A stretch of DNA of 24,664 nt from a virus: positions 1 through 24,664 of IMG/VR virus record IMGVR_UViG_3300032086_003395; one strand, written 5' to 3'. A program made the translations under genes and the position numbers. Shown here in pieces: positions 3 through 14,778 of this stretch. Every line of letters begins with the position of its first letter. The stretch's first letter is position 1. The notes under the pieces were generated by a model that worked only from the letters and a program-made list of their open reading frames with translations, was not told the DNA's origin and searched no databases.

Positions 3-3000
3 GAGGAGGAGGCCGAGCCGGAGGCCGAGGCGGCGGAGCCCGCAGCGGCGGAGGCAGCATATGTGCCTGACGGCGACCTGACTCGCGAGTCCCTTGACGG
101 GATGGCGTGGAAGGAAGTGCAGCAGCTGGCCAAAGACCAGGGGCTGTCGACGGGCGTCGGGCAGACGCGCGAAGCCCTGACGGATCAGCTGCTGGGCGAG
201 GCTGAGCCGGTGATGCGCGGAGCCAAGGCGGGCAAGCTTGGAAAAAAAGCGTCGAAGAAAAAGGCGGCTCGCAAGAAAGCTGCCGCGAAGCCTGCCGCCA
301 CGCGCAAGAAAAAGGTTAGGAAGCAGGTGCGCCGCGAAGAGGTGGCCGAGGAGGCTGATGAGGGCCGGGAGCTGGCACAGCCTGCGGAGCGGACGCCGCA
401 ATACAAGCTAGACAGAGCCGCCAAGCGAGCCGCTAAGAACGTCTCACCCGAAGACGTTGAGGCGGCAGCAGAAATCATCCGCTACTGGCAAAGCGGCAAG
501 ACGTGGAGTGAACTGACTCCTGAGGAGCAGGAGCGGCTCGATGCTTTGCTGCCCACGCCCAAAGGCAAAAAAGCCCTGACTGCCGAGCAGAAGCTCAAGG
601 GCATTGGGACCGATGCGGCGCTAAACGAAATCCAATGGGCGCTTGTTAGCGACGTTCTGCGCGATCGAGGTTACGATCCCGATGCGGTCCTGAAGAATCA
701 GTACGGGAAGGGCAAGGCCAAGATCCGCGGCAAGTACCCGAGCAAGGCCGCCATCCTTGACCCCGAAACCCACGTCGATCTGTGGGAGGAGGCGTCGGCG
801 GAGAAGCAGGCCAAGGCGGTTGAGACGGACGAGAAGCGCGAGAAGCGTCAGAAAGAGAACAAGGCGCGACTCGAGGCCGCCGAACGCAAACGCCAGGAGC
901 GGCGGGAGACGCGCGGGCCGACGGCAGCTGAGGTAGTTGCCGATCGAGAGGCAGGCCGACACGCAGAGCAAAACCCTGCTGAGGTCGGGCGCGATGTGCT
1001 CGTGCCGGAAACTGTAGCCCAATACCAATGGTGGCAGGATGCGCCAGCCTGGATCCGCCCCGCTCTTGCCCGCGCGCTGAGCACGCGTGTTGAGGATGTG
1101 CCTGGCCGCAAGGTCAGCAGCGGCAGGCCTAAGCGCAAAGCCCGCATGCACGAAATGCTGTGGGAGGACATGACTGAGGCCGATAGCGGGGCCATTGAGT
1201 CCATCATCCTCGATGCAGTCGCTCACCGCTCGCAAACCCGCGGCATGGATGAGGCCGACTGGTACTGGGCGGATCCGATGACTTGGTGGATTGAGCGGCA
1301 CGAGCCCGAAATGGAGCAAAAGGCGGTTGACGACACCTTGCTCTTCAACCTGCGCCCCGACGCATTCGACGACTTTGAGCCCATCAGCGAAGAGTACGTC
1401 AACGATATCGTCAAGAGTGCCATCGACTTTGGCGGGCCCGTCGGCAAGCTGTACAGCGATATCAGGCAAGCCAACGCCGATTGGCAAACCGCCATTGACC
1501 TCCTCAAGAACAAAGAGGAGAAGCACCAATGGGGCGATCGTAACGAGTACCTGCAAGACGCTCTTGAGGCGCTTGGCCACCTTGAGGCAGAGCGGGTGTT
1601 TGATGACAGCGTCTCCGACTTCCAAACCTTCTTGGCGCTGGAGCTAGAGAATCGGTTCGGAGAGGACTCGGACAATTGGCCGCAAGCGGTGCGAGATGCA
1701 GTCAGCCTCGACACCAGCGATGTGATGGAGATGGGCATTGGCCCCACCAGCGGTGCGAACTTCGACGCCCTAATGGCGTGGGACGAGAACATTGCCCGCG
1801 ACATCTACATCAACATTCTGGAGGGCACCAAGCCTCTGCACGAAGCTGCACAGCAGTTGTTCTTCGGACAGCAGGACATTGCCCAGTTCATGCAGGAGGA
1901 GGTCCGTGATGTGCTCACGCAGGCGGGCCTGCTGACGGCAGAAGACCTACAAGCAGAGCGCGTAGGCAACCCACTCAACTTCACCTTCCTTGAGTTCCAG
2001 TTCAAGGCGCAGCTAGAGCGCGCCCTGGAGTCCGTGCGCACCCTGACGGAAGATGTTGTCGACCAAACGCTGAACAGCATGGCCGTGACTCGCGCCAAGG
2101 GCCTGAACCCCGGAGTGTACAGCCAAGCCAACGCCGAGATTATTCAGGACGCGGCGTACCATACGCTCGATCAGGCGCGACACATTACCCGGAAGGCTGC
2201 GCGACGCATCTATGCGCGCATGGCCCTTGAGACGTTCCAGAGACTGACCCCTGGCGTCAAACTCAGCGCCGCCGAGCGCACCTCACTTACAAGCCTGTTC
2301 ACGGAGTTCAAGAACGGCCTGAACCGCAGCCCGATTCGCGGCACCGCCAGCAAGGGCGAGATCGACCCGGAGATGCAGGAGCTGGAGATGTCTTTCCAGC
2401 TGGATGCGCTGCGCAACGACCCCAACGTCCTGCGCAACCCGAACACGAACGAGCCAATGCTGCTGTGGCACGGCACGCTGGACAATCGCTCAATGCTGGC
2501 TGGCGGCCTGTTCACAAAGGGACGCGGGTTTGGCGTGGCGACGCCGCTTGACGCTGGCTGGGCGTCCGAGATGTTCGTGCAGTCCGCCCTAGATGGCCAA
2601 AGGAAATACCCACGGGGAACGGCACGCAAGCGCGATGTGCCTGAGTTCGTGCAGGGCACAAGCCTAGGCGCGTACTACGTCCGCTCCAACGCAACGTTCA
2701 ACCCCTGGCGGCATGAAGACCGTGGTCGCGTGGTGCGATACCTCCCGCACAACCGCATGGAGGACGAGGGCATCAAGGACCCGACTGTGCGCGTGGACGC
2801 GTACATGGAGCTGCTTAGCTACTACCTGCCCAACTATCGCGACTTCGTGGCCCACAAACGACTCGACACCGGGCTGCGGGACCTGCTGCTTGACGTTGAG
2901 CTTGAGCGGCGGCAGCTGACGGCATTCGAGTCCAAAATTCTCGAGTCCGTGCAGACGATGTTCGACACCATGCTGGTGATGTCGCGCGATCCGTTCAGTC

Positions 3001-6000
3001 TGCAAGAGGCCGCCACGATTGTTCGGGCGACTCGCGAGGCAGGCGGTGAGATTCCCAACAGGCCCAGCGTGAGCAGCCTTGAGAGCCTGCTGCATCCCGA
3101 GTGGGCGCCTGCGTGGGAGGCCATCGAGTTGGGCATTCGCCAGGACGTTACGCAAAGCATGCTGACGGATCTGACGGTTTCGCCAAACGAGCAGGACGGC
3201 CTCATTCTGTCGCCGGACATTCCGGGCCGTGACGCAACCGAGGCCGAGCGGTTCATGGATCTGCGTCAGCGCGGCATCAACTTCGCGTCGCAGTTCAACA
3301 ACATCGCGGCCATGACCCAGGAGTGGTTCGTCGAGACTCTGCGAAACGCAGGGTTTGACGCCGCTTACGCCAGCAGCTTGGTCGGTCAACCCAACCGGGA
3401 CTCCATGGCGCCGTGGCTGCCCGACATGGACCCGCTCGCTGACCTTGATGCGGGCTTCCTGGAGATGGCCAACCAGGGCGAGGACTTTGGTTCAAACCCC
3501 CTGCTGACTCGCCCTGGGCGCAACCTGCCGCACGTCATCGTGTTCAACCCGCAGCAGATGGTGTCCGCGACGGTGCCCTCGGCTCGCGAGCAGGACCTGT
3601 TCTTCAACATCAGCAACCTAGACGCGCCGAACGGTCAAGGCGTGGGCATGAGCTATACGCATAGTGTCAACGACCCGACCGGCGGAATTGAGAGCAGAAT
3701 CCGGGCAATCTACAACACGCCCGACGGAGCGGAAACGTTCGACGCCAGCATCCGGCGTGACGGCAACAACACGCGCTACATGCGCGCCGTTGTGCCGCCC
3801 TATCTTGTGGAGGCTGAGGAGTCGCTGATCGACAACCTCATGTTCCACGCTGGGCACCACGCTGCGGCATACATCGAACTCGAGGACGATGCGCTAGCAG
3901 AAAGCCTTGCCGATGCTCTGGGCACCGAGGCCGAGGCAACAGAGCTAGGCCACTACACCGTGCGCATGACGGCGGCTGGTGCTCGACAGCAAGGGCAGCA
4001 CTTCGGAGCTGCACGGATGGTGCGTGACGCCCAGGAGGCAATCACCGGCATTCGCTTGTTTGAGGATGACGACCTCATGTTCAACATGGATCAGGAGGTC
4101 GACGAGCCCAGCATGATCGAGCCGGGCGCCGACAGTTTGCTGACCGCCGAACGCTACCAAGCCATGCTCGACAAGCTGAACTCGGAAGTCGAGACGAGCA
4201 CCGAGTGGCTGGAGAAACGCTTCATGCTGCTGGAGAAGGAGCTAATGGATCTGGCTCCCAACAAGATCAGCATGGCCAAGCATGTTAGGCGCTGGACAAG
4301 TGCTGGGCACCTGCTGATCGACCTTGAGAACACCGCTCGCATCAAAGGCAGCACGATCGAGCAGCTGATTGACGAGGGTCGCAACAAGGCAAAGGCGCAA
4401 GGCAACCCTTGGAACGAGGCCAAGGAGGCCATGATCAAGGACGTGCTCGACATGCCTGCCGAGATCGAGTCCATCGTCACCAGGGTCGCCACGATGAACC
4501 GGGTGCTGGGTCAGAGGGCTCAACGCTTCGGGCTCATTAGCGATTACTACGACTTCTACAGCGCGCGCATCTGGATGGGTGACGATGTTTCCCTGCAAGA
4601 CAGGAACATCATTGATCTCACGCAGGGCATTGCCTCACCGACACGAGCAGGCGCAACCTTCCGTACGGGCGTGGGGGCGCGCGGCAAGCGACGGACCTAC
4701 GACTCGATCCTGGATGGCTGGGCTGATGGCAAGGAGCTGGCCGCCATGAACATGCTGGCTATTAGCCAACGTGTTCACAGCGATGTCCTGAACAGCATCT
4801 CGAACATCCAGTTCCGCAACGTCATGACCTCCGCAGGGTTCATGGGCAAGCTGAAGGATGGCCGTGCGCCGCAAGGCGCCGTCGAGCTGCGCACCAACAG
4901 CCCTGGCCTGCGGGGCTACTGGGTTGTCGAGGCACTCGCCGACGACCTTTCAGCCCTGACAACGCGCATGGACTGGCAGTCCACGGCATTCAAAAAAGCG
5001 TACCGCAAGGCGTACCGTCTCAACAATGCAGGCAAGGCGTCAGTCCTGTTCACCAGCCTGTTCCACAACTTCGCCTTCTGGCGCTCGTTCTACTTCAGTC
5101 GCCCCGGCCACTTCAGCTCGACCACCAAGATGGTGACAGAGGCGCCGATGTTGCTGGGCGGCTCGCTGCTCAACGTCATTCCGGGCGCTGACCAGCTGCT
5201 TGGCCGTGATGCTGGAATGCGACTGGCAATGCGGTCGCCCGAGGTAAGGTCTGGAGTCGAGGCGATTCTGGGTGAGTCCCCCATCTACGCACGCCTCGTA
5301 GCAAACGGCATGACCATGCCGTTCAGTATGCGCTATGGCGATGAGCAGTCGATTGACTCGGCGCAGCGGCGCACGCTGATCGAGAAGGCCGTCACCCTCT
5401 TCGGGCCGCTGTACGGTCGCGAGCGTGCGGAGCGCATGGCGCAAAGCATGCAGGACTACCGCACTCGTACGAGCCAGTTCCTGTTTGCCAACGTCGGCGC
5501 CCCGCTCAAGGCGCAAGCTGCAATCCTCGAGTACAAGCACGAGATGGCGCAGCTCAAGCGCGACATCATGAAGGGGCGTGTCGAGGAAGGGCAGATTACC
5601 GAGGACGACATCGCCCGCAAGGTTGCGGCCAAGATGAACGATGACTTCGGCGGGCTCAACTACCGCAGGGGCGAGAACATCCTTGGCGGCGTGCGGCGCG
5701 CAGAGAACCAGAACCTCATGCGCCTGGGCCTGCTGGCATCTGACTGGACGGAATCCAACCTGAACACCGTCCTCAAGATGTTCAGCCTGACCCAGAAGAT
5801 GTACGGCACCAGGGCCGACACGGACGAGGAGAAGCAAAAGCAGCTCGACCGCATCGAGCGACGCATGTATCGCAACCTTGCGATCAACGCTGCGTTCCGA
5901 TCGCAGATCCTGACCGCCGCGTTCAACGCCCTGATGGCGGGCCTCGATGACGACGAGGACTTCTTCTCTCGCTACGAGCAGGCGTGGCGCGATGGCAACT

Positions 6001-6533
6001 TTAACTGGGCCAAGGTCAACATCAGCCCTGTTGCCAACATGGTCGACGAGTTCTTCGGCAATGAGGCGCACCACCCTGACAGCCGGATCTACTTCAGCCT
6101 CATCGGGCACTTCCTCGATCCGTACAAATGGGCCTACGACATCTTCCTGAACGACGATATGTGGGGCCCGCTCAAGGCAAAGGGTAGCCCCATTGTGCGG
6201 GCCTTGACTGCCCTGGGCACCGGTACGGACTGGAAGGGCCAGAGCTACACGCCTGTGTGGAATGCTCCGGGCAAGCCCAGTCTCATGGAGGGGCACCTGA
6301 AGCAATGGGAGTGGAACAGCGGCCAAACCGTCTACCGCATGCCCGCTGCAATGATTGACCAGTTCATCGGCAACCTGCCCATCATCGGGCAGACCGGCGT
6401 GCGCGTCTTCAACGGAGAGGAGTCGGCATTCGACTTCATGGCCGACGGCGTCGGCCTGCATACCACCCGCACCTATCCTGGGAGCGGGCGTCAACGGGAG
6501 GTCGCTCCCTTCTTCGAGTACATGATGCAATGA
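3..6533 (+). CDS. Giant phage polyvalent protein with ART-like and LPD38-like regions (5' partial)
   Basis: The reading frame is open to the left edge, so the gene probably starts outside the window; a GTG at 63 is the first in-frame start seen. Residues below count from that GTG. The order is: an acidic Glu/Ala tract, a SAP/HeH-like segment (about 7-40), a Lys/Ala-rich linker (about 52-90), and long helical regions. An ART-like region follows at about 798-1175, with a WHGT motif (His803) and a terminal FNPQQMVSA motif. The C-terminal third holds DDFGGLN (about 1860) and DWTESN (about 1894), which recall the LPD38 domain of polyvalent proteins. Such proteins are thought to ride in the virion and enter the cell with the DNA. 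The position at the end of the late module, just before lipoprotein and holin-like genes, fits a virion protein. The ART and LPD38 calls come from motif recognition only. The catalytic residues beyond the HGT motif were not placed. Confidence 0.85.
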   Translation, partial: EEEAEPEAEAAEPAAAEAAYVPDGDLTRESLDGMAWKEVQQLAKDQGLSTGVGQTREALTDQLLGEAEPVMRGAKAGKLGKKASKKKAARKKAAAKPAATRKKKVRKQVRREEVAEEADEGRELAQPAERTPQYKLDRAAKRAAKNVSPEDVEAAAEIIRYWQSGKTWSELTPEEQERLDALLPTPKGKKALTAEQKLKGIGTDAALNEIQWALVSDVLRDRGYDPDAVLKNQYGKGKAKIRGKYPSKAAILDPETHVDLWEEASAEKQAKAVETDEKREKRQKENKARLEAAERKRQERRETRGPTAAEVVADREAGRHAEQNPAEVGRDVLVPETVAQYQWWQDAPAWIRPALARALSTRVEDVPGRKVSSGRPKRKARMHEMLWEDMTEADSGAIESIILDAVAHRSQTRGMDEADWYWADPMTWWIERHEPEMEQKAVDDTLLFNLRPDAFDDFEPISEEYVNDIVKSAIDFGGPVGKLYSDIRQANADWQTAIDLLKNKEEKHQWGDRNEYLQDALEALGHLEAERVFDDSVSDFQTFLALELENRFGEDSDNWPQAVRDAVSLDTSDVMEMGIGPTSGANFDALMAWDENIARDIYINILEGTKPLHEAAQQLFFGQQDIAQFMQEEVRDVLTQAGLLTAEDLQAERVGNPLNFTFLEFQFKAQLERALESVRTLTEDVVDQTLNSMAVTRAKGLNPGVYSQANAEIIQDAAYHTLDQARHITRKAARRIYARMALETFQRLTPGVKLSAAERTSLTSLFTEFKNGLNRSPIRGTASKGEIDPEMQELEMSFQLDALRNDPNVLRNPNTNEPMLLWHGTLDNRSMLAGGLFTKGRGFGVATPLDAGWASEMFVQSALDGQRKYPRGTARKRDVPEFVQGTSLGAYYVRSNATFNPWRHEDRGRVVRYLPHNRMEDEGIKDPTVRVDAYMELLSYYLPNYRDFVAHKRLDTGLRDLLLDVELERRQLTAFESKILESVQTMFDTMLVMSRDPFSLQEAATIVRATREAGGEIPNRPSVSSLESLLHPEWAPAWEAIELGIRQDVTQSMLTDLTVSPNEQDGLILSPDIPGRDATEAERFMDLRQRGINFASQFNNIAAMTQEWFVETLRNAGFDAAYASSLVGQPNRDSMAPWLPDMDPLADLDAGFLEMANQGEDFGSNPLLTRPGRNLPHVIVFNPQQMVSATVPSAREQDLFFNISNLDAPNGQGVGMSYTHSVNDPTGGIESRIRAIYNTPDGAETFDASIRRDGNNTRYMRAVVPPYLVEAEESLIDNLMFHAGHHAAAYIELEDDALAESLADALGTEAEATELGHYTVRMTAAGARQQGQHFGAARMVRDAQEAITGIRLFEDDDLMFNMDQEVDEPSMIEPGADSLLTAERYQAMLDKLNSEVETSTEWLEKRFMLLEKELMDLAPNKISMAKHVRRWTSAGHLLIDLENTARIKGSTIEQLIDEGRNKAKAQGNPWNEAKEAMIKDVLDMPAEIESIVTRVATMNRVLGQRAQRFGLISDYYDFYSARIWMGDDVSLQDRNIIDLTQGIASPTRAGATFRTGVGARGKRRTYDSILDGWADGKELAAMNMLAISQRVHSDVLNSISNIQFRNVMTSAGFMGKLKDGRAPQGAVELRTNSPGLRGYWVVEALADDLSALTTRMDWQSTAFKKAYRKAYRLNNAGKASVLFTSLFHNFAFWRSFYFSRPGHFSSTTKMVTEAPMLLGGSLLNVIPGADQLLGRDAGMRLAMRSPEVRSGVEAILGESPIYARLVANGMTMPFSMRYGDEQSIDSAQRRTLIEKAVTLFGPLYGRERAERMAQSMQDYRTRTSQFLFANVGAPLKAQAAILEYKHEMAQLKRDIMKGRVEEGQITEDDIARKVAAKMNDDFGGLNYRRGENILGGVRRAENQNLMRLGLLASDWTESNLNTVLKMFSLTQKMYGTRADTDEEKQKQLDRIERRMYRNLAINAAFRSQILTAAFNALMAGLDDDEDFFSRYEQAWRDGNFNWAKVNISPVANMVDEFFGNEAHHPDSRIYFSLIGHFLDPYKWAYDIFLNDDMWGPLKAKGSPIVRALTALGTGTDWKGQSYTPVWNAPGKPSLMEGHLKQWEWNSGQTVYRMPAAMIDQFIGNLPIIGQTGVRVFNGEESAFDFMADGVGLHTTRTYPGSGRQREVAPFFEYMMQ

Positions 6534-7642: not shown

Positions 7643-7667
7643 CCGAGTTCGCTCTAGAAAAACTCGG
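7643..7667. other. Hairpin overlapping the recT stop codon
   Basis: A 7-bp inverted repeat (CCGAGTT and AACTCGG) with an 11-nt loop contains the last codons and stop of the recT-like gene. It is the third hairpin in a row in this convergent region. In recT mRNA it would fold around the stop codon. Confidence 0.4.
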
Positions 7668-8349
7668 CGGGGTCAGGCATGTCTCCCTTGCGCTCGCTTT
7701 CTGCAAGGGGCTGTTCAGACGTGCCTTCCTCACCTTCGTCGGAGCGCACACTCTCCGGCGAAGGCTCTGCGATAAGGTCGTTGAGGGCATCGACCTTGGC
7801 TTCAAACTCAGGGACGCGCGCAGCCCGCACATCTTCAAGCTCCTCGGCGGTCTGCAATCCCAGCAGCACCTGAGGACATGTGGTGCGGATGAGCAAAGAA
7901 CTTGCTCTGTAACGCAGCATCAATTGCGGCATCGTACGATACTTGGGATTGCTCGTCCACTTCTCGGCCTTGGCCATCGCCATATCGCAAGTGAACTCGA
8001 CACGCTGGTCCGTCTCACGCACGATTGCAAACGCAGTCACCGCAAGCTGATCTCCGCTGCCTCGCTCTTCGAAGCAGATGGGGCCCTTGAACACGCCGCT
8101 CTTGTTCGCCATGCCGATGGCGTACTTGGCCGAGAACCCCGGCGTACCATGCACCACATAGGTGTTCTGCATGATCTCCATGACGCCGACGCCCAGCCGC
8201 TCGGCCATGTCCATGGCGACGAAGCAGTTTGCGGGCTGACCCTGGAACGTCTTGGGGATGATGCTTGCGCGGCTCAACGCTTGCGCGTATTGCCACATCT
8301 CTTGCCCTTTGTTGGGGTGGGCAGCGACCTCTTTGGTTTCGTCAGTCAT
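7654..8349 (-). CDS. recT: RecT-family single-strand annealing protein
   Basis: This 231-residue protein is recognised as RecT-like from its body. It has the N-terminal segment about recovering a substrate (QGQPANCFVAMDMAERLG), the VMEIMQN and GTPGFSAKYAIGMAN segments, and a C-terminal MLRYRASSLLIRT segment just before an acidic tail. RecT proteins pair complementary single strands made by a partner exonuclease, and serve phage recombination and replication. The gene directly follows the exonuclease gene on the same strand with an 8-base gap, the usual exo-recT pairing. Its start has no Shine-Dalgarno sequence; the spacer instead holds CCTAACCC. The acidic C-terminus (about 180-231) may bind a host single-strand-binding partner, which is inference. 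Confidence 0.88.
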   Translation of the reverse strand: MTDETKEVAAHPNKGQEMWQYAQALSRASIIPKTFQGQPANCFVAMDMAERLGVGVMEIMQNTYVVHGTPGFSAKYAIGMANKSGVFKGPICFEERGSGDQLAVTAFAIVRETDQRVEFTCDMAMAKAEKWTSNPKYRTMPQLMLRYRASSLLIRTTCPQVLLGLQTAEELEDVRAARVPEFEAKVDALNDLIAEPSPESVRSDEGEEGTSEQPLAESERKGDMPDPAEFF

Positions 8350-8357
8350 CGTGGGGG

Positions 8358-9185
8358 TTAGGACTCAAGGGACCAGCGGGGGAGGGAAAGGGTTTCCACC
8401 TTGTCGGACGAGGTGTAGCTGCGCCAATGGTTGCTGGTGCGGCACTCGGCGTAGGTCGCCAAGCCGTTCATGTAGAACTCCCGGCCAGCTTGCATGGCGT
8501 CTTCGTCAAGGACGTAGCAGGCAACGCCATACGGCGGCAGCTTCTCGACAACGAGGAATGCGAACATCGCGTCTTCGTCGACTTCGCCAATGCGCTTGAG
8601 CCCGTCGAGGTAGTACGCGGCTTGCGCGTGGTACTTGAAGTTGGCGGCGGTACGCGCGAACTCCTTCGGGCTTGCGTCGAAGCTAGTCTTCAGATCGACG
8701 ATGAGCTTGCGGGACATGGCGTCAGGCCTGCCTCGGCAGAGCATGCCGGGCTGCGAAGCTGAGTCCCAGCAACAGCTGACCTCACGATCGGCGGCCTCGA
8801 GCAACAGGTTGCGTGCCGCAGCGGAGTCATGCACGGCGGCCTTCATGCGGCAAAGCTGGTCGGCCTCTTCTTGCGAGACGATGATGCGATCGCCAGCTTC
8901 GGCCTCGAACTCGGCGTACTGCGCCTTGCCCGCCTTGGTGCGTCGGTCCACCTTGGGGCAGACGATCAACTCCTTGGCGGCTTCCTGCGTCTCCAGCAGG
9001 ATCCATGCGTGGGCGGCGGTGCCGAAGCGCATGTTGGCTGTCGGTTCCTTGGGCTTGAGCCGGGCTTCGCGCAAGTGCGCCGGGGATCGGCGTACCAGCA
9101 TCAGGTCATGCACACTCACGGCGTCCCAGGACAGGTAGTCCTTGAAGGGCACCCCGTGGTGTGCGCCAGGGGTGGGGGTGATCAT
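8358..9185 (-). CDS. RecE-type PD-(D/E)XK exonuclease
   Basis: The product of 275 residues has a RecE/DUF3799-like nuclease layout: GTAAHA (His59), a Glu near 135, GRPDA (Asp155), the D-L-K triad at 164-166, and a Gln/Tyr motif at about 188-192 (HAQAAYY). It would digest one strand of duplex DNA ends to make substrate for the adjacent RecT. The ATG at 9185 was chosen because it falls exactly where the leftward promoter should begin transcription. The longer open frame beyond it runs antisense through the repressor gene and lacks family similarity. The gene is transcribed away from the Cro-like gene and shares its operator region. Confidence 0.87.
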   Translation of the reverse strand: MITPTPGAHHGVPFKDYLSWDAVSVHDLMLVRRSPAHLREARLKPKEPTANMRFGTAAHAWILLETQEAAKELIVCPKVDRRTKAGKAQYAEFEAEAGDRIIVSQEEADQLCRMKAAVHDSAAARNLLLEAADREVSCCWDSASQPGMLCRGRPDAMSRKLIVDLKTSFDASPKEFARTAANFKYHAQAAYYLDGLKRIGEVDEDAMFAFLVVEKLPPYGVACYVLDEDAMQAGREFYMNGLATYAECRTSNHWRSYTSSDKVETLSLPRWSLES

Positions 9186-9191
9186 GCCCCT

Positions 9192-9219
9192 ATTGTACCT
9201 ACGCGCGTAGAGGCCGCAA
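9192..9219 (-). promoter_or_regulatory. Leftward promoter for exonuclease-recT, leaderless
   Basis: On the minus strand TTGCGG (9219-9214) is followed by a 16-bp spacer and TACAAT (9197-9192), five of six matches to the -10 consensus. Only six bases, AGGGGC, separate the -10 box from the ATG at 9185. Transcription would therefore start at or beside the start codon. The spacer contains one complete operator copy. Confidence 0.7.
9198..9212. promoter_or_regulatory. Operator copy 1 (CTACGCGCGTAG palindrome)
   Basis: The core at 9199-9210 is a perfect 12-bp palindrome, CTACGCGCGTAG, inside the identical 15-mer CCTACGCGCGTAGAG that recurs 48 bp to the right. It lies between the -35 and -10 boxes of the leftward promoter, so a bound repressor would block polymerase. 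The Cro-like protein encoded next door is the obvious candidate ligand. Confidence 0.75.
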
Positions 9220-9238
9220 GAATCTTTCCGAAAAAAAG

Positions 9239-9266
9239 TTGACGCCCTACGCGCGTAGAGCATAAG
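9239..9266 (+). promoter_or_regulatory. Rightward promoter for the Cro-like operon, leaderless or nearly so
   Basis: TTGACG (9239-9244), a 16-bp spacer and CATAAG (9261-9266) form the promoter. Eight bases lie between the -10 box and the ATG at 9275, so transcription should start within about three bases of the start codon. There is no Shine-Dalgarno sequence. The layout mirrors the leftward promoter. Confidence 0.65.
9246..9260. promoter_or_regulatory. Operator copy 2 (CTACGCGCGTAG palindrome)
   Basis: This is an identical 15-mer to copy 1, with the palindromic core at 9247-9258, and it occupies the spacer of the rightward promoter. The centres of the two copies are 48 bp apart, which would allow one repressor to control both directions. 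Confidence 0.75.
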
Positions 9267-9274
9267 CTCCGCGC

Positions 9275-9511
9275 ATGGATAGCACCGACACCCCCGCCCC
9301 GAAGCAGCTGATCGAGACGATCGAGCAGCACTTCGGCGGCGTGACTCAACTGGCAGCCCAACTCGGCGTGACCGAGGGGGCAGTACGCGACTGGAAGCGC
9401 AAGGACGGCATGCCCCTGATGGCTGCTCGCTTGACCGCACGCATCGCCGGAGAGAACGGCATCGTGATCTTCGAGCGTGACCTGCTGAAGAGGCCGACCG
9501 ATGGCGAATGA
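9275..9511 (+). CDS. Cro/YdaS-like helix-turn-helix repressor
   Basis: A 78-residue protein with a helix-turn-helix at about 20-45 (the VTQLAAQLGVTEGAVRDWKR region), followed by a basic recognition-helix end and a short C-terminal part typical of Cro or YdaS-type phage regulators. There is no peptidase or dimerisation domain of the CI type. It is the first gene rightward of the divergent control region and probably binds the two CTACGCGCGTAG operators, repressing both its own operon and the exonuclease-recT operon. The transcript is expected to begin at or next to the ATG. The next gene overlaps it by 11 bases. Confidence 0.85.
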   Translation: MDSTDTPAPKQLIETIEQHFGGVTQLAAQLGVTEGAVRDWKRKDGMPLMAARLTARIAGENGIVIFERDLLKRPTDGE

Positions 9512-10232
9512 CTACCTGCCCTACTTCAAGTTCTTTCCTCGCGACTACCTCGCATCTCCCTCGGTCATGCTTATGACGCTGGCCGAGCAAGGCGCGTACA
9601 TTCGCATGCTCTCGCTCCAATGGGAGAACGGACGCATCCAGCCCCGCCACCTGCGTGGGCTCCTGCAATGCACGCAGGAGGAGTGCGATGAGCTGATGTC
9701 AGGCTCGCTGGGCGAGTGCTTCATGCTCGACGAGGAGGGCAACCTCTACAACGAGCGGCTCGATGGCGAGCGCAAGGAGGCTATGCAGCTGATCGAGAAG
9801 CGCAGAGCAGCTGGTTACGCAAGGGCCCGCAAGTCCTCAGCACCTGCTGGGCATCCGGTTCCATATGCAAAGGCAGAGGCAGAGGCAAAGGCAAAGCCTA
9901 AACGTAGGAGCGCCGTGGCCGAGTACGAGGCGGCGGTCGATGACTGGCAGCGCACCAACGGGCCTATGCCTAGCGCCCTGCTGCAAGCCACCGAGGAGTA
10001 CCTCGCCCTACGCAAGGATCAACGCATGCCCTTGTGGTCACGGGAGATGTGGCTACGCAACATGTCGATGGAGGTCTACACCGTCGAGGAGTGGTGCGAT
10101 GCTTACGCAACGGCCATTCGCAGCGGTTGGCGTAGCGTCCACCCTCGCAAGGGGGGTAAGGGCTCGATGCCGCCTTCGCGTAACGGCAACCCGTTCATCG
10201 AGCTTATGGAGGGCGAGAGTGAACAAGGCTGA
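9501..10232 (+). CDS. DUF1376 (YdaU-like) replication protein
   Basis: The N-terminal 85 residues match the DUF1376/YdaU pattern: YLPYFKFFPRDYLAS, then LTLAEQGAYIRML-like helices. In phages these proteins sit where replication initiators such as lambda O lie. An Ala/Lys/Glu linker (about 122-134) is encoded by five tandem GCARAG hexamers. The C-terminal part (about 135-243) is a second helical domain with a basic NGNPF-containing tail. The start is well supported by an AGAGG sequence seven bases upstream, within the repressor gene. A helicase-loader-like gene follows with a 14-base overlap, which supports a replication module. Direct DNA binding at an origin is inference. Confidence 0.82.
   Translation: MANDYLPYFKFFPRDYLASPSVMLMTLAEQGAYIRMLSLQWENGRIQPRHLRGLLQCTQEECDELMSGSLGECFMLDEEGNLYNERLDGERKEAMQLIEKRRAAGYARARKSSAPAGHPVPYAKAEAEAKAKPKRRSAVAEYEAAVDDWQRTNGPMPSALLQATEEYLALRKDQRMPLWSREMWLRNMSMEVYTVEEWCDAYATAIRSGWRSVHPRKGGKGSMPPSRNGNPFIELMEGESEQG
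9867..9896 (+). repeat. Five tandem GCARAG hexamers inside the replication gene
   Basis: The copies are GCAAAG, GCAGAG, GCAGAG, GCAAAG and GCAAAG without gaps. They encode an Ala-Lys/Ala-Glu linker, so simple linker expansion can explain them. An iteron-type origin inside the initiator gene, as in lambda O, is an alternative. Confidence 0.7.
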
Positions 10233-10782
10233 AGTCAGCGCCCTGCTTGCGATGCTGTCCGAGGTGTACCCTCGACGCATAGGCACGGGTGACGCAAAGC
10301 GCACAGCTGCGCTGTGGTCGATGGTCCTTGCGGATGCTGCCCCAGCGCCCGTGCTGGCAGCTGCCGTCGGGTGGATGCGTAGCAACAAGCCCCATCCCCC
10401 GACGCCTGGGGAGCTACTCGCAACGCTGGAGGATGCCGATCGGGACACGCCCGAGGAGGCGTGGGGTCGGGTACGCAGCGAGATGCAACGCGTAGGCTAC
10501 ACGGGTACGCCCGAGCTGTCGGACCGTGCGCGTCGCGCAATCGAGGCCGTGGGTGGCCCATGGGAAACCATGTGCAGGACGCTGCAAAGCAGCGAGGTCA
10601 CGGCTTTGCGTGCCCGATTCCTGGAGGCTTACCGTGGCATGGAGGATCGCGATCAGAAACGCGAGGCCATCGCGCAAGCGGACGAGATCCTCAAGCTTGC
10701 TGCGCCCATCGCAAAGGCGTACCGTTTGGTCGATGCGACGGGCAGCGAAGGTGGATGCGAACCAAGCGGAGATTGTCCGTAG
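10219..10782 (+). CDS. Helicase-loader-like replication protein
   Basis: The product of 187 residues starts at a GTG preceded by GGAGGG. The N-terminal half, beginning NKAEVSALLAMLSEVYP and continuing through a segment on attrition of a workload (AALWSMVLADAAPAPVLAAAV) and HPPTPGELL, resembles phage helicase loader/inhibitor proteins of the G39P type. Those deliver the replicative helicase to the initiator. The C-terminal half is helical and has no motif I recognise. It lacks a Walker A ATPase motif, so it is not a DnaC-type AAA+ loader. Location after the DUF1376 gene supports the role. The next start codon lies inside its last 50 bases. Confidence 0.65.
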   Translation: MNKAEVSALLAMLSEVYPRRIGTGDAKRTAALWSMVLADAAPAPVLAAAVGWMRSNKPHPPTPGELLATLEDADRDTPEEAWGRVRSEMQRVGYTGTPELSDRARRAIEAVGGPWETMCRTLQSSEVTALRARFLEAYRGMEDRDQKREAIAQADEILKLAAPIAKAYRLVDATGSEGGCEPSGDCP

Positions 10783-11023
10783 CTTGCGTGCGCTAGGCGC
10801 CACCGTGCAATCGCTTGCAATGGTGGGCAAGGGGTGCCCCGATATCCTCGTCGGATACCGGGGCACCAACTTTCTATGCGAGATCAAAGACGGGCGTAAG
10901 CCCGCCTCTGCGCAAAAGCTGACGCCCCACGAGGCCGCATGGCACGACTCGTGGGGCGGTCAGGTGGTGATCGTTCGCAGCGTTGACGATGCAATCGCGC
11001 TAGTCACCAAGCACTTCTCGTGA
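10733..11023 (+). CDS. VRR-NUC-like nuclease / resolvase
   Basis: The 96-residue product has the small phage VRR-NUC layout: DANQAEIVRSLRALGATVQ, then G-C-P-D-I-L-V-G, then the E-I-K catalytic motif (FLCEIKDG) and a basic Gln/Lys segment before the HEAAW helix. Members are PD-(D/E)XK nucleases linked to branched-DNA or Holliday-junction cleavage in recombination and replication. The ATG at 10733 overlaps the previous gene by 50 bases; a GTG 18 bases later is an alternative start. Shine-Dalgarno support is weak. The 3' end overlaps the convergent ribbon-helix-helix-like gene by 24 bases. Confidence 0.85.
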   Translation: MRRAAKVDANQAEIVRSLRALGATVQSLAMVGKGCPDILVGYRGTNFLCEIKDGRKPASAQKLTPHEAAWHDSWGGQVVIVRSVDDAIALVTKHFS

Positions 11024-11262: not shown

Positions 11263-12252
11263 TCAAGCGACGAGTGTCGGATTCTTGACAGACTCCAACG
11301 CCTTGGTGATGGCGTCGATGGCGGAACGCTCATCGAACACCGAGTCGAGCAAGATCGTGTTGCCGGGAAGCAGCCCACGAATCTTGCTACGCATCTCCTC
11401 GGGGATGGTGCTGATGGGCTTGGACCTGCCAAGCGCAGTACCCGAATCCACGAGGGGCAACGCCTTGATGAGACGGAACTGGCGCAACCGGAAGCTTGCC
11501 GGGTGAGCCAACAACGAGCCAAGCTTGCCGATGCGCAGGAGCTCATCGGGTTGCTTGACCGGGATGAGCATGCTGGTCCGGTTCTTCGGATCAGCGTTGC
11601 TCTGCATCGAGTACCACGCCGTGATGCCAACCGACCATCCGGCACGAGTCAACGCATCGGCCAACGCCACAGCGGCGCAACCATTCCAGCGCAACTGGCT
11701 GGCCTTCATGTCGCAGTTGCCACCCCATGCCGTCGCAATCGTGACGACGGGCAACGACCGAGTGCCGCCCGCCTTCACGGTGAACGGCGTGTAGTAGTCG
11801 CCATTGACCCAGCGATCCGAGGACAGTTCACCGCCCTCGTGATGCTTGCGTCGCTTGCGCTTGCGTGGGACGATCAGTCCCTCCGCCTTCGCCCGCAACC
11901 CCTGGGACATCTTCTCGATCTCCTCGGCCATGTAGCCAACACGCCAGGTTTCCTGGAGTTCAGGCCATGACTTCGCATCGCCTGCATACCAGTCGTCGGG
12001 CACTCGTTGCGCCCAATCGTCGGGCCCGTAGCCTTCGAGGCATTCGGGGGGGCCGCACCAACCTTCCCAGTCGTTGGGCTTGTCGGATAGCGCCTCCCAC
12101 GAGGCGAGGTCACGGAACTGGATGACACAATGCGAGTCGCCCGAAGACTTCGAGTCCCACGCCTTGCGCTTCTCGCGAGCGCGAGTCGTCGTCCCGTACA
12201 TCTTGCGCGTGAACTCCGGTTGCTCATCTTGCTGACCAAGCTCCCAGCTCAC
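11263..12252 (-). CDS. Degenerate VWA-like partner of the AAA+ ATPase
   Basis: The 329-residue protein starts at a GTG that overlaps the AAA+ stop as GTGA. The N-terminal third is Trp-rich (SWEALSDKPNDWEGW, GYGPDDWAQRVPDDWY). A basic KRKRRKHH cluster lies at about 131-138. Residues about 166-330 alternate predicted strands and helices in the order of a von Willebrand A domain: LPVVTIAT, a helix, GWSVGITAWYS, and a late NTILLDSVFD strand. The place of the DxSxS metal site is taken by ATAWGGN (about 173-179), so metal binding may be lost. MoxR/CobS ATPases usually pair with VWA proteins, which supports the fold. It also recalls phage proteins I know as DUF7192; that name is from memory and was not checked. 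Confidence 0.6.
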   Translation of the reverse strand: MSWELGQQDEQPEFTRKMYGTTTRAREKRKAWDSKSSGDSHCVIQFRDLASWEALSDKPNDWEGWCGPPECLEGYGPDDWAQRVPDDWYAGDAKSWPELQETWRVGYMAEEIEKMSQGLRAKAEGLIVPRKRKRRKHHEGGELSSDRWVNGDYYTPFTVKAGGTRSLPVVTIATAWGGNCDMKASQLRWNGCAAVALADALTRAGWSVGITAWYSMQSNADPKNRTSMLIPVKQPDELLRIGKLGSLLAHPASFRLRQFRLIKALPLVDSGTALGRSKPISTIPEEMRSKIRGLLPGNTILLDSVFDERSAIDAITKALESVKNPTLVA

Positions 12253-14012
12253 GACGCCACCTCGGCAACGGTACGGCAGGACTTGATCTCGTCCGGCGTC
12301 CACGCAAGCACAGCCTCCTGCAAGCAACGGGCGACGGTCCAGCCGTCGGCTTGCGTGCGGAGGTACAGGCGCTGCAACTCACGCATCGAGATGATGCGCC
12401 GCAGCTGGGCCTTGCGAACCTCGTCGCGCAAGCGTTGCCACTTGGTCACGAGTTCGGGCATGTTGGGGCACAAGGCCCGCTCAAGCTTGGGATCGTAGTC
12501 AACCTCGACCAGACCGAAGCGATTGAGGAACGCACCATCGAGCTGGTTGCGTCCCACATACACAGCCGACGGCCCGGTGCCCCAGGTGTTGGCTGCGCAG
12601 ACCAGCATGAAGTCCTCGTGCTTGTGGGCGAAGGGCGCATCGTCCCTGCCCGGCACAGGCAACAGCCCGTTGGCGATGCCGTCGTTGATTGCGAGCAACA
12701 CGTTCTCGTCGCACGCATCCACCTCGTCCAGCAGCATCACGCCACCGTTCTCGAACAGGTCGAGGAACGGCGTCGTGCGATGCCGGAACGAGCCGTCCGC
12801 ATCGGGCAAGCGTGACCCCGTGAAGTGGTACTCCGCAGTACCACCCGACAGCGACATGCTTGCGAAGGGGCGGTCAAACGCAGCCGCCAGCTGGCGACCG
12901 AGCATCGACTTGCCCGTACCAGCAGGGCCACGCAAGAACACCGGGACGCCGAGGCGCAGCCAGCCCACGCAATCCTGGAACTTGTCGTGCAACGCCTCGT
13001 CCTCGGGGATCTCCCACTCGGACATGTCGGGACGAGTCACCTGCACGCGCATCGTGAGGGTGCCGTCGGATGCGGCAGCAGCGATGGCATCTCGAGCGGC
13101 TTGCTCGGCGATTGCACGCACCTCGTCCGGGTTGGCAGCACCACCCGAGGTCAGCAGCTGCGCAATCTGCTGCGCCACATCACCAACAGCAGGCGATGCG
13201 GGAGCAGGGGTAGGGGCGACGGGACCCGGCACCTCGTCGGGCTGCGGGTCGGGCGTGGGGTCAGGCTTCGGGGCACCCTTGTCCTCACCCAGTCGGATGC
13301 CTGCCTGTGCGCATCGCTTCCACGTCGCGTAGGTGTCGACCCACCGCTTGTGAAGGGCGTTGTAGTCGTATGTGCCCTCCACGGTACGGCTGCCGTGCAA
13401 CGCCTCGGAGTAGCCATCAGGCCAACAGCCGTACGCAGCGGGAATGCTCTTGCGATTCTCCGGCTGCGCCCCGCACATGTCGACCAGCTGGATAGCCGCC
13501 ATGTCCTGTTGCGTGTAGCTGTGCGACAGGCTGCGCCAACGCTGGAGCCAGAACTCCACATCCTTGTCCAGGCAAGCGTCGATCAACTCGCACCACACCC
13601 GAGCCTTCGCCTTTGCGCGAACGCCGGAGATGGAGCCCCTGTCGATCCGTTGCGTGATGTCACGCTGCACCTCCCGCAAGCGGGTCCGCAGGGTGGAACG
13701 CCCAAGGGCCTGCAACAGCGTCCAGTCCCGCAGCATCGGCTGGCTGCAAGACACCGGGGGGTACGCATCCACGAAGAACAGCCGATGCGCACCCGTCACG
13801 GGCACCCTCTTGGGGTCCGACATCCAGGGCTGGTACAGCCACGAGCGATGCATGCCGTAGTCGTCGTCCTCGACATCGGTGCGCTCGACATCTCGGATCG
13901 GGACGCGTGCCGCCTTGCTGCGCTTGCAGCACGATAAGGCGCTGGCCTCGTCGACATGGATGCGGCCGCATCCGTTGGAGGCGTGGTGGTTGTTGCAAGT
14001 GTAACGAGTCAT
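12249..14012 (-). CDS. CobS/MoxR-like AAA+ ATPase with zinc-finger-like N-terminus
   Basis: The product has 587 residues. The N-terminus holds Cys6, His9/10, Cys15, His19, Cys28 and Cys29, a possible zinc site. A helical region (about 85-235) and a Pro/Asp-rich linker (about 246-275) follow. The C-terminal AAA+ module has Walker A GPAGTGKS (362-369), Walker B VMLLDEVD (425-432), sensor 1 Asn475 in CAANT, and an arginine-finger candidate Arg498 in LNRFG. The closest family is CobS/MoxR, hexameric ATPases that remodel partner proteins through VWA-domain adaptors. No cobalamin genes lie nearby, so a cobaltochelatase role is unlikely here. The ATG overlaps the upstream gene's stop, and the downstream VWA-like gene overlaps its own stop. 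The N-terminal extension is far longer than in bacterial CobS. Confidence 0.85.
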   Translation of the reverse strand: MTRYTCNNHHASNGCGRIHVDEASALSCCKRSKAARVPIRDVERTDVEDDDYGMHRSWLYQPWMSDPKRVPVTGAHRLFFVDAYPPVSCSQPMLRDWTLLQALGRSTLRTRLREVQRDITQRIDRGSISGVRAKAKARVWCELIDACLDKDVEFWLQRWRSLSHSYTQQDMAAIQLVDMCGAQPENRKSIPAAYGCWPDGYSEALHGSRTVEGTYDYNALHKRWVDTYATWKRCAQAGIRLGEDKGAPKPDPTPDPQPDEVPGPVAPTPAPASPAVGDVAQQIAQLLTSGGAANPDEVRAIAEQAARDAIAAAASDGTLTMRVQVTRPDMSEWEIPEDEALHDKFQDCVGWLRLGVPVFLRGPAGTGKSMLGRQLAAAFDRPFASMSLSGGTAEYHFTGSRLPDADGSFRHRTTPFLDLFENGGVMLLDEVDACDENVLLAINDGIANGLLPVPGRDDAPFAHKHEDFMLVCAANTWGTGPSAVYVGRNQLDGAFLNRFGLVEVDYDPKLERALCPNMPELVTKWQRLRDEVRKAQLRRIISMRELQRLYLRTQADGWTVARCLQEAVLAWTPDEIKSCRTVAEVAS

Positions 14013-14485
14013 TGGGAGTCTCCAGTCTTGGTGGTTTCGGTGTCGCTCGAATCCGGGTACTGCTCCGACCGGAGCGACTCCAGTCGGGCAAGCATGATTT
14101 GTGCAGCAAGCTGCAAGATGTGAATGTCGAGGCCTCGATCAGCGAAGGCGTCAACGTCACGCAAGGCAGCGAGCATGCGCTCGGGACTGCCAGCATCGGA
14201 ATCCATGGTTTCGCCCTGCATCACGGCAAGGGCCCATGCTTTGGCGTACTCCTCGGGAGTCGCCGTGAGGATCACACCAACGGCACGCTGCGGGGAGTGC
14301 AGCTGCTGCAAGATGCGATCGACCAGCTTGCTACGGGCGTCATCTTGGATGTTGCCCTTGTGCATGCGGTGCTGGTCAAAGTACGACGGGAACACATCGT
14401 CCACGATGGCGGCACACACTCCGATGTACGCCATGCAGGAGTCGGCCCACCTGCCGGGGTCGTCGGGCTTGATGTCGTCGCTCAT
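14009..14485 (-). CDS. Hypothetical helical early protein
   Basis: The 158-residue protein starts at an ATGA overlap with the DUF3846 gene and ends in an ATGA overlap with the AAA+ gene. It is acidic at both ends and largely helical between about 12 and 140, with no catalytic motif I recognise. The segment about 18-40 (CMAYIGVCAAIVDDVFPSYF) is hydrophobic but contains charges, so a membrane helix is unlikely. It might be an accessory or substrate of the neighbouring ATPase, judged only from coupling. An upstream ATG at 14608 would overlap the previous gene and was rejected. Confidence 0.75.
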   Translation of the reverse strand: MSDDIKPDDPGRWADSCMAYIGVCAAIVDDVFPSYFDQHRMHKGNIQDDARSKLVDRILQQLHSPQRAVGVILTATPEEYAKAWALAVMQGETMDSDAGSPERMLAALRDVDAFADRGLDIHILQLAAQIMLARLESLRSEQYPDSSDTETTKTGDSQ

Positions 14486-14778
14486 TTGAGCCACCCCGAC
14501 GGGCAAAGGATGACGGTGCCGTACAGTTCCACATTGGACATGAACGAGGCTGCAAGGTTGAACCCTCGCCCGTTGATGCGTCCGTTGTCGTCGATGATGG
14601 CAATCCACTCAGGGTTGCCCGGAAGGGGCGGAGTGAACGGCACAACGTCGATGGTGTCGCAACCGAGATGCTCGTAGCACTCGGCAAGCGTGAACCCCTC
14701 GTCGGGGTCGTTGGGCGTGATGCCCTCGGGCTCGATGGATTGGTCTTCGTCGATGCGAAGCGCGAACTGGATGTTCAT
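14482..14778 (-). CDS. DUF3846-like protein
   Basis: The 98-residue product matches the DUF3846 pattern: LGCDTIDVVPF near residue 40, then a substrate-like PEWIAIIDDNGRING strand pair, then FNLAAS and a late VELYGTVILCPSGW segment. DUF3846 proteins are common in phage early regions and have no known function. Upstream Met codons overlap the previous gene; the ATG at 14778 is one base after the previous stop. Downstream it overlaps the next gene by four bases. Confidence 0.75.
   Translation of the reverse strand: MNIQFALRIDEDQSIEPEGITPNDPDEGFTLAECYEHLGCDTIDVVPFTPPLPGNPEWIAIIDDNGRINGRGFNLAASFMSNVELYGTVILCPSGWLK

Follow-up and report, generated by a model that had tools for sequence, protein, structure and literature searches.

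Among the described systems closest to the locus examined here, NorQ-NorD consists of a MoxR ATPase and a VWA protein and serves the maturation of nitric oxide reductase. For this pair, a finger in the pore has been described (PMC13036017), and NorD mutants altered in the MIDAS were found to keep NorQ binding but to lose client activation (PMC9976466). In tailed viruses, cobST clusters are widespread, with the cobT of cyanophages being usually misannotated as a peptidase (PMC8651126). The DNA analyzed in this study, a fragment of 24,664 bases, corresponds to an IMG/VR virus record and is in the following called the window. A previous reading of the window from its letters alone (the sequence-only reading) had singled out one gene, encoding a MoxR/CobS-like ATPase with a long N-terminal extension, as part of a candidate uncharacterised system. 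The protein is not an orphan, its ATPase half being part of the large and already catalogued phage family phrog_249, a membership that had been missed.

Results

Positions 12249..14012 of the window are open on the minus strand alone and encode, from an ATG start, a MoxR-type AAA+ ATPase of 587 amino acids (P0001), with the plus-strand frame across the same positions being interrupted by stops. Scans of viral contigs with single window proteins yielded no relatives; a three-row ATPase alignment did retrieve loci. The contig L009, which stems from a related phage, has the same gene order as the window, and its ATPase is 57% identical in the same frame over 306 aligned residues (the AAA+ part), with identities of 74% for RecT and 36% for the DUF7192 partner described below. 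This common gene order and these identities indicate that the ATPase gene is real and conserved, and its coding status is supported by the L009 homolog together with the overlaps of 4 bases that the gene shares with its flanking genes on each side. A tblastn search using the AAA+ half of the protein gave matches in 915 of 50,697 phage records, none of them with an identity of 60% or more.

The AAA+ module comprises residues 341-587 (12252..12992, minus strand) and was modeled with pLDDT values mostly >90. All motifs looked for in a MoxR-family ATPase are present, namely Walker A (GPAGTGKS, residues 362-369; 12906-12929, minus strand), Walker B (VMLLDEVD, residues 425-432; 12717-12740, minus strand), sensor 1 (N475), the Arg finger (R498), and sensor 2. 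In an alignment of 59 homologs, G362, G365, G367, K368, D429, E430, N475, and R498 do not vary and R544 hardly does, in agreement with the intact module that had been read from the sequence at these residues. The protein matches AAA_5 of Pfam (E = 3e-14) and, with residues 325-549, phrog_249 of the PHROGs (E = 2e-46), which is labeled 'porphyrin biosynthesis'. The best PDB folds for the ATPase model were NorQ and CbbQ (E down to 2e-13), including entries of NorQ-NorD complexes, and AlphaFold2 predicts a helix-2 insert and a pre-sensor-1 hairpin (strands 400-403/409-412 and 450-452/461-463). Judged by its modeled fold, the ATPase is a member of the MoxR family with NorQ/CbbQ as its closest folds, which bears out the MoxR/CobS-like assignment made before. 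Identity as a helicase, clamp loader, Lon, or GvpN was rejected, these being generic AAA+ signals that were below curated cut-offs or far weaker than phrog_249; a check for clustering with a phage helicase likewise showed that helicase and clamp-loader families all score well behind phrog_249.

Walker A is preceded by 361 residues, which is the longest N-terminal part among 59 relatives (median 188) and in accordance with the long extension claimed by the sequence-only reading. Residues 1-30 were modeled by AlphaFold2 as strand, strand, and helix and carry the motif C-x8-C-G-x2-H-x8-C-C, a putative Cys/His finger at residues 6-29 (C6, C15, H19, C28/C29; 13926..13997, minus strand). By reading and aligning the sequence of the L009 ATPase, the finger was found there with a longer first loop, corresponding to C-x(8 or 17)-C-G-x2-H-x8-C-C across the two proteins, and the ligands C, C, H, and C are conserved in this sole relative aligning at that place. 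The zinc-finger-like cluster described previously is therefore present as a motif, its basis being conservation in one relative and a model of moderate confidence. The other two parts described for the extension were also recovered: a mostly helical region (residues 96-236; 13305..13727, minus strand) with modeled helices at 105-124, 132-148, and 152-178, and a Pro-rich linker evident from the sequence itself (approximately residues 246-277; 13182..13277, minus strand). However, moderate model confidence is reached within residues 1-240 by no more than the finger and some of the helices, and confidence is low for residues of about 48-104 and 166-214. The helical region belongs to no known family and has no phage relatives, residues 1-260 yielded no significant relative in the phage collection and no phmmer match in the fetched loci, and a comparison of the N-terminal part with known replication and virion families gave no match. 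CxxC motifs occur in the N-terminal parts of 8 of the 59 relatives. The extension may represent a variable recruitment module.

Directly downstream of the ATPase gene, positions 11263..12252 of the minus strand encode a protein of 329 amino acids from a GTG start. The general link between MoxR ATPases and VWA proteins had been stated correctly before, whereas this dedicated partner had been missed. The protein matches PF23822 (DUF7192; E = 3e-15) as well as phrog_1909, and each of the 59 members of the working alignment individually matches PF23822. AlphaFold2, run on these 59 sequences, predicts a VWA-like core at residues 169-323 (11284..11748, minus strand) with pLDDT values mostly near or above 90. 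It is composed of beta1 (169-175), alpha1 (184-203), beta2 (207-217), beta3 (224-233), helices at 241-264, a helix at 285-294, a strand at 298-302, and a helix at 308-323, with beta2 and beta3 forming a hairpin (207-233). In the predicted model, the elements follow each other as in a VWA domain, except that one of the inner strands is weak or absent.

The top four Foldseek matches of the DUF7192 model in the PDB were NorD VWA chains in NorQ-NorD complexes (E 3e-4 to 3e-3, probability 0.98-1.00), found in PDB entries to which the ATPase model had led as well, and vWF A1 domains ranked behind NorD with weak scores. TM-scores to NorD were low (0.23-0.35), because much of the model falls outside the core. 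A search of BFVD returned DUF7192 proteins first, followed by VWA and CobT proteins of viruses with E values of 4e-6 to 5e-4. An hhalign comparison of DUF7192 with the VWA domain of CobT from bacteria and phages aligned 79 columns, extending from beta1 to beta3 (probability 94%, P = 1e-7, score 52 to 55) with an identity of about 22% in the aligned part, and the near-invariant Lys of both, K233 of DUF7192 and K80 of the CobT alignment, share one aligned column. The score of a re-run was 52.5, compared to at most 15.5 for 100 column shuffles, 11-14 for reversed profiles, and at most 24 for 143 neighboring phage proteins; a control alignment of DUF7192 to the ATPase gave a probability of 0.4%. 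As a sequence search of the PDB alone yielded CobT at E = 1.3 only, the VWA claim for DUF7192 is based on profile-profile and fold evidence jointly.

The MIDAS motif DxSxS-T-D is absent from the DUF7192 protein of the window, which has AWGGN instead. Of the 59 members, 40 have D or N at the first position and a single one has a complete DxSxS, and a by-eye comparison revealed neither the DG nor the SDG motif of CobT in DUF7192. The combined profile and model evidence identifies DUF7192 as a relative of the VWA fold whose metal site has decayed. The sole member with a complete DxSxS (DTSTS; contig L050, 6850-7704) is a good candidate for dating the loss of the MIDAS.

The association of the two genes was examined in 80 IMG/VR loci chosen solely by ATPase similarity, 76 of which contain a DUF7192 gene, and in six GenBank phages belonging to different groups (Stab23, Aegeus, LP-114, P100plus, Wigglewiggle, and crAss cr125_1), in which it directly follows the ATPase. 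In all 82 cases DUF7192 is encoded on the ATPase strand, being located downstream in 77 (68 of them at a distance of at most 100 bases) and directly upstream with a 4-base overlap in four; outliers are one gene 4 kb downstream and one 1.4 kb upstream of the ATPase. Two of the four loci lacking DUF7192 (L074, L082) end at the ATPase and a third (L031) has about 450 bases left, so that L083 (242-973, 861-2640) is the only one with downstream room and no DUF7192. Here, the ATPase ORF breaks off shortly behind the Arg finger; next come an ORF resembling a reverse transcriptase fragment and then portal-like sequence, an arrangement that possibly marks a rearranged or mosaic contig. Record counts of ATPase and DUF7192 in GenBank phages, which are totals and not record-by-record pairings, amount to 236/236 for Staphylococcus, 70/70 for Listeria, and 80 and 88 for Mycobacterium. 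Several mycobacteriophage records, of Wigglewiggle (MK937600.1) and its relatives, contain two DUF7192-like places each. In crAss cr125_1 (4698-5609 of locus L008), the DUF7192 gene is uninterrupted only if TAG is decoded as an amino acid (table 15). No match to DUF7192 was obtained in 14 control genomes and three Alphaproteobacteria, a sample too small for a virus-only claim. Altogether, the pair is known from phages of Staphylococcus, Listeria, and Mycobacterium, from gut crAss-like phages, and from many uncultured phages, where its genes carry the annotations porphyrin biosynthesis and hypothetical protein, and the pairing with a VWA protein looked for in a MoxR-family ATPase is found in the form of a VWA-related protein adjoining the ATPase in nearly all relatives.

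A tree of 77 ATPase cores separates 65 DUF7192-partnered ATPases from 12 partnered with CobT or a cyanophage 'peptidase', the latter including bacterial CobS, by one branch with an SH-aLRT value of 100. The split between the two types of ATPases is thus supported, albeit by a tree built quickly and in which the branches of Adgers, ICP2, and crAss are long. The NCBIfam CobS equivalog TIGR01650 (cut-off 558.55) did not match the window ATPase at E 0.01 and reached 29 bits for the L009 homolog, in line with the doubt that the sequence-only reading had voiced regarding a cobalamin role. Its statement that cobalamin genes are missing holds for the 24.7-kb window, a fragment and not a whole phage, in which no CobN or CobT_C family was found.

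The ATPase stop and the DUF7192 start overlap by 4 bases (GTGA; 12249..12252, minus strand), and translational coupling of the two genes is likely. At its other end, the ATPase gene overlaps with its start (ATGA) the stop of a gene for a protein of 199 amino acids without assigned function (14009..14608, minus strand), which probably shares an operon with the ATPase and stands outside the conserved pair; a 27% identical counterpart precedes the ATPase in L009 only. Outside a single lineage, the surroundings of the pair contain no recurrent third gene, the maximum being 11 of 65 loci. Positions 7654-11023 of the window encode a RecT-like annealing protein, a PDDEXK exonuclease, a DUF1376 primosomal-type protein, and an endonuclease/Holliday-resolvase-like protein, in an order conserved in L009. 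In both contigs, the pair adjoins RecT, exonuclease, primosomal, and VRR-type nuclease genes and is located away from terminase and portal. The early operon proposed previously is a supposition drawn from the gene neighborhood. Replication or recombination genes are found near the pair or the ATPase family in the window, L009, crAss, LP-114, and cyanophages. A survey of 143 nearby proteins revealed terminase genes as the commonest recognizable neighbors, the neighborhoods being mixed overall. Upstream of the replication genes, the window contains an ORF of 2156 amino acids (63-6533) without PHROG match, which possibly encodes a giant virion protein.

Discussion

It appears highly likely that the ATPase and the adjoining DUF7192 protein constitute a two-component MoxR/VWA remodeling motor that is distinct from phage CobST. 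This is suggested by the intact AAA+ site, the near-universal pairing, the VWA ancestry of DUF7192, and the separation from CobS/CobT pairs in the tree. In such a motor, six ATPase subunits would form a ring into which the DUF7192 protein would dock, perhaps via its beta2-beta3 hairpin and by analogy to NorD in NorQ, and ATP hydrolysis around the ring would move the VWA domain and so remodel a client. Targeting may depend on the N-terminal parts, which vary between relatives and comprise the Cys/His finger in the case of the window ATPase. As the metal site has decayed while the part nearest to CobT (beta1, alpha1, beta2, beta3, and the near-invariant Lys) has been kept, the client is probably not gripped via a MIDAS metal. 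The behavior of the NorD mutants fits a MIDAS-less module that keeps beta1-beta3, in which docking would be retained and client binding via the metal would be lost. As a tentative first guess, the client could be a nucleoprotein or a host complex of the replication or takeover phase.

With a virion part as client, a second and less probable guess, the pair would be a chaperone of virion assembly acting late on a structural protein. Precedents are Acidianus two-tailed virus and jumbo phages, whose MoxR-VWA pairs have been suggested to act in this way (PMC7824862, PMC7911831), and the role would be compatible with terminases being the commonest recognizable neighbors. However, the genes beside the pair in the window and L009 are of the replication type, with terminase and portal located elsewhere, replication genes flank the family in crAss and cyanophages too, and the metallopeptidase part is absent, so that virion assembly appears unlikely. 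A rather improbable function is that of a defence or counter-defence module, for instance one related to the MoxR-vWA ternary conflict systems. These use MoxR-vWA cores (PMC7159879), and the N-terminal parts vary between relatives of the window ATPase as well, but no recurrent third component or effector was found around the pair beyond one lineage, and PADLOC returned no specific match, only a generic AAA one (E = 0.002).

The label of phrog_249, a published proposal for viral CobST (PMC8651126), and the distant relationship that the two proteins show to CobS and CobT would point to a helper of cobaltochelatase that raises cobalamin together with host CobN. This is hardly tenable given that the CobS equivalog is unmatched, that the tree places the ATPase apart from the CobT-partnered side, to which bacterial CobS belongs, that the partner has lost its MIDAS, and that the window lacks CobN and CobT_C. 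Moreover, conservation of the pair extends to phages of Staphylococcus, a host genus not known to make B12. The lost MIDAS, the low TM-scores, and the identity of about 22% to CobT could also mean that DUF7192 is some other Rossmann-like protein which merely travels with the ATPase. Such an origin is very improbable in view of a profile score far above those of 100 shuffles and 143 real decoys, of two structure libraries that independently return VWA proteins, with MoxR-bound ones first in the PDB, and of the near-universal gene pairing.

Reading the pair as a MoxR/VWA motor provides DUF7192 with a testable function and cautions against scoring these genes as vitamin-B12 auxiliary metabolic genes; for the DUF7192-partnered branch, a label as vitamin B12 or porphyrin gene is probably wrong. 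The pair would moreover represent a naturally MIDAS-less MoxR/VWA system that allows docking to the ring and binding of the client to be told apart. With somewhat less than even confidence, it can be proposed that this large phage MoxR branch as a whole kept the ring-docking VWA part, lost the MIDAS, and moved the choice of target to fast-changing N-terminal modules, which in the window would be the zinc finger and the helical domain, aimed at a host or replication complex, the 'CobS/porphyrin' label then being wrong branch-wide.

The window proteins belong to the catalogued families phrog_249, phrog_1909, and PF23822 (DUF7192), whose entries read 'porphyrin biosynthesis' or 'unknown function' and leave VWA kinship and pairing unstated, and no literature naming DUF7192 was found in a search covering few subscription journals. 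MoxR/VWA motors are a known kind of system, of which a phage MoxR ATPase with a MIDAS-less DUF7192 protein is a variant that we have not found described. With phage and bacterial CobS-CobT it shares the pair of AAA+ and VWA genes in tailed phages and a detectable profile kinship of the partner. In contrast, phage CobT has 580-850 amino acids and DUF7192 about 280-330, DUF7192 lacks the MIDAS (DxSxS, DG, SDG), and the ATPases form a separate group unmatched by the CobS equivalog. The cyanophage cobS and 'peptidase' (phrog_459) genes likewise combine a phrog_249 ATPase with an adjacent partner gene, but that partner comprises 711 amino acids, is located upstream, and belongs to the phrog_459 family, with its ATPase on the CobT side of the tree. 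The pairs of Acidianus two-tailed virus and jumbo phages also consist of a viral MoxR ATPase with a VWA cochaperone, whereas the window pair has no metallopeptidase fusion and a degenerate MIDAS. NorQ-NorD differs in that the window pair lacks a NorD-type N-terminal domain and the MIDAS, has a long N-terminal extension of the ATPase, and occurs without a nitric oxide reductase. Even at identities of about 16-19%, the window pair resembles NorQ-NorD in the best folds for both proteins, in the adjacency of the genes, and in the VWA topology.
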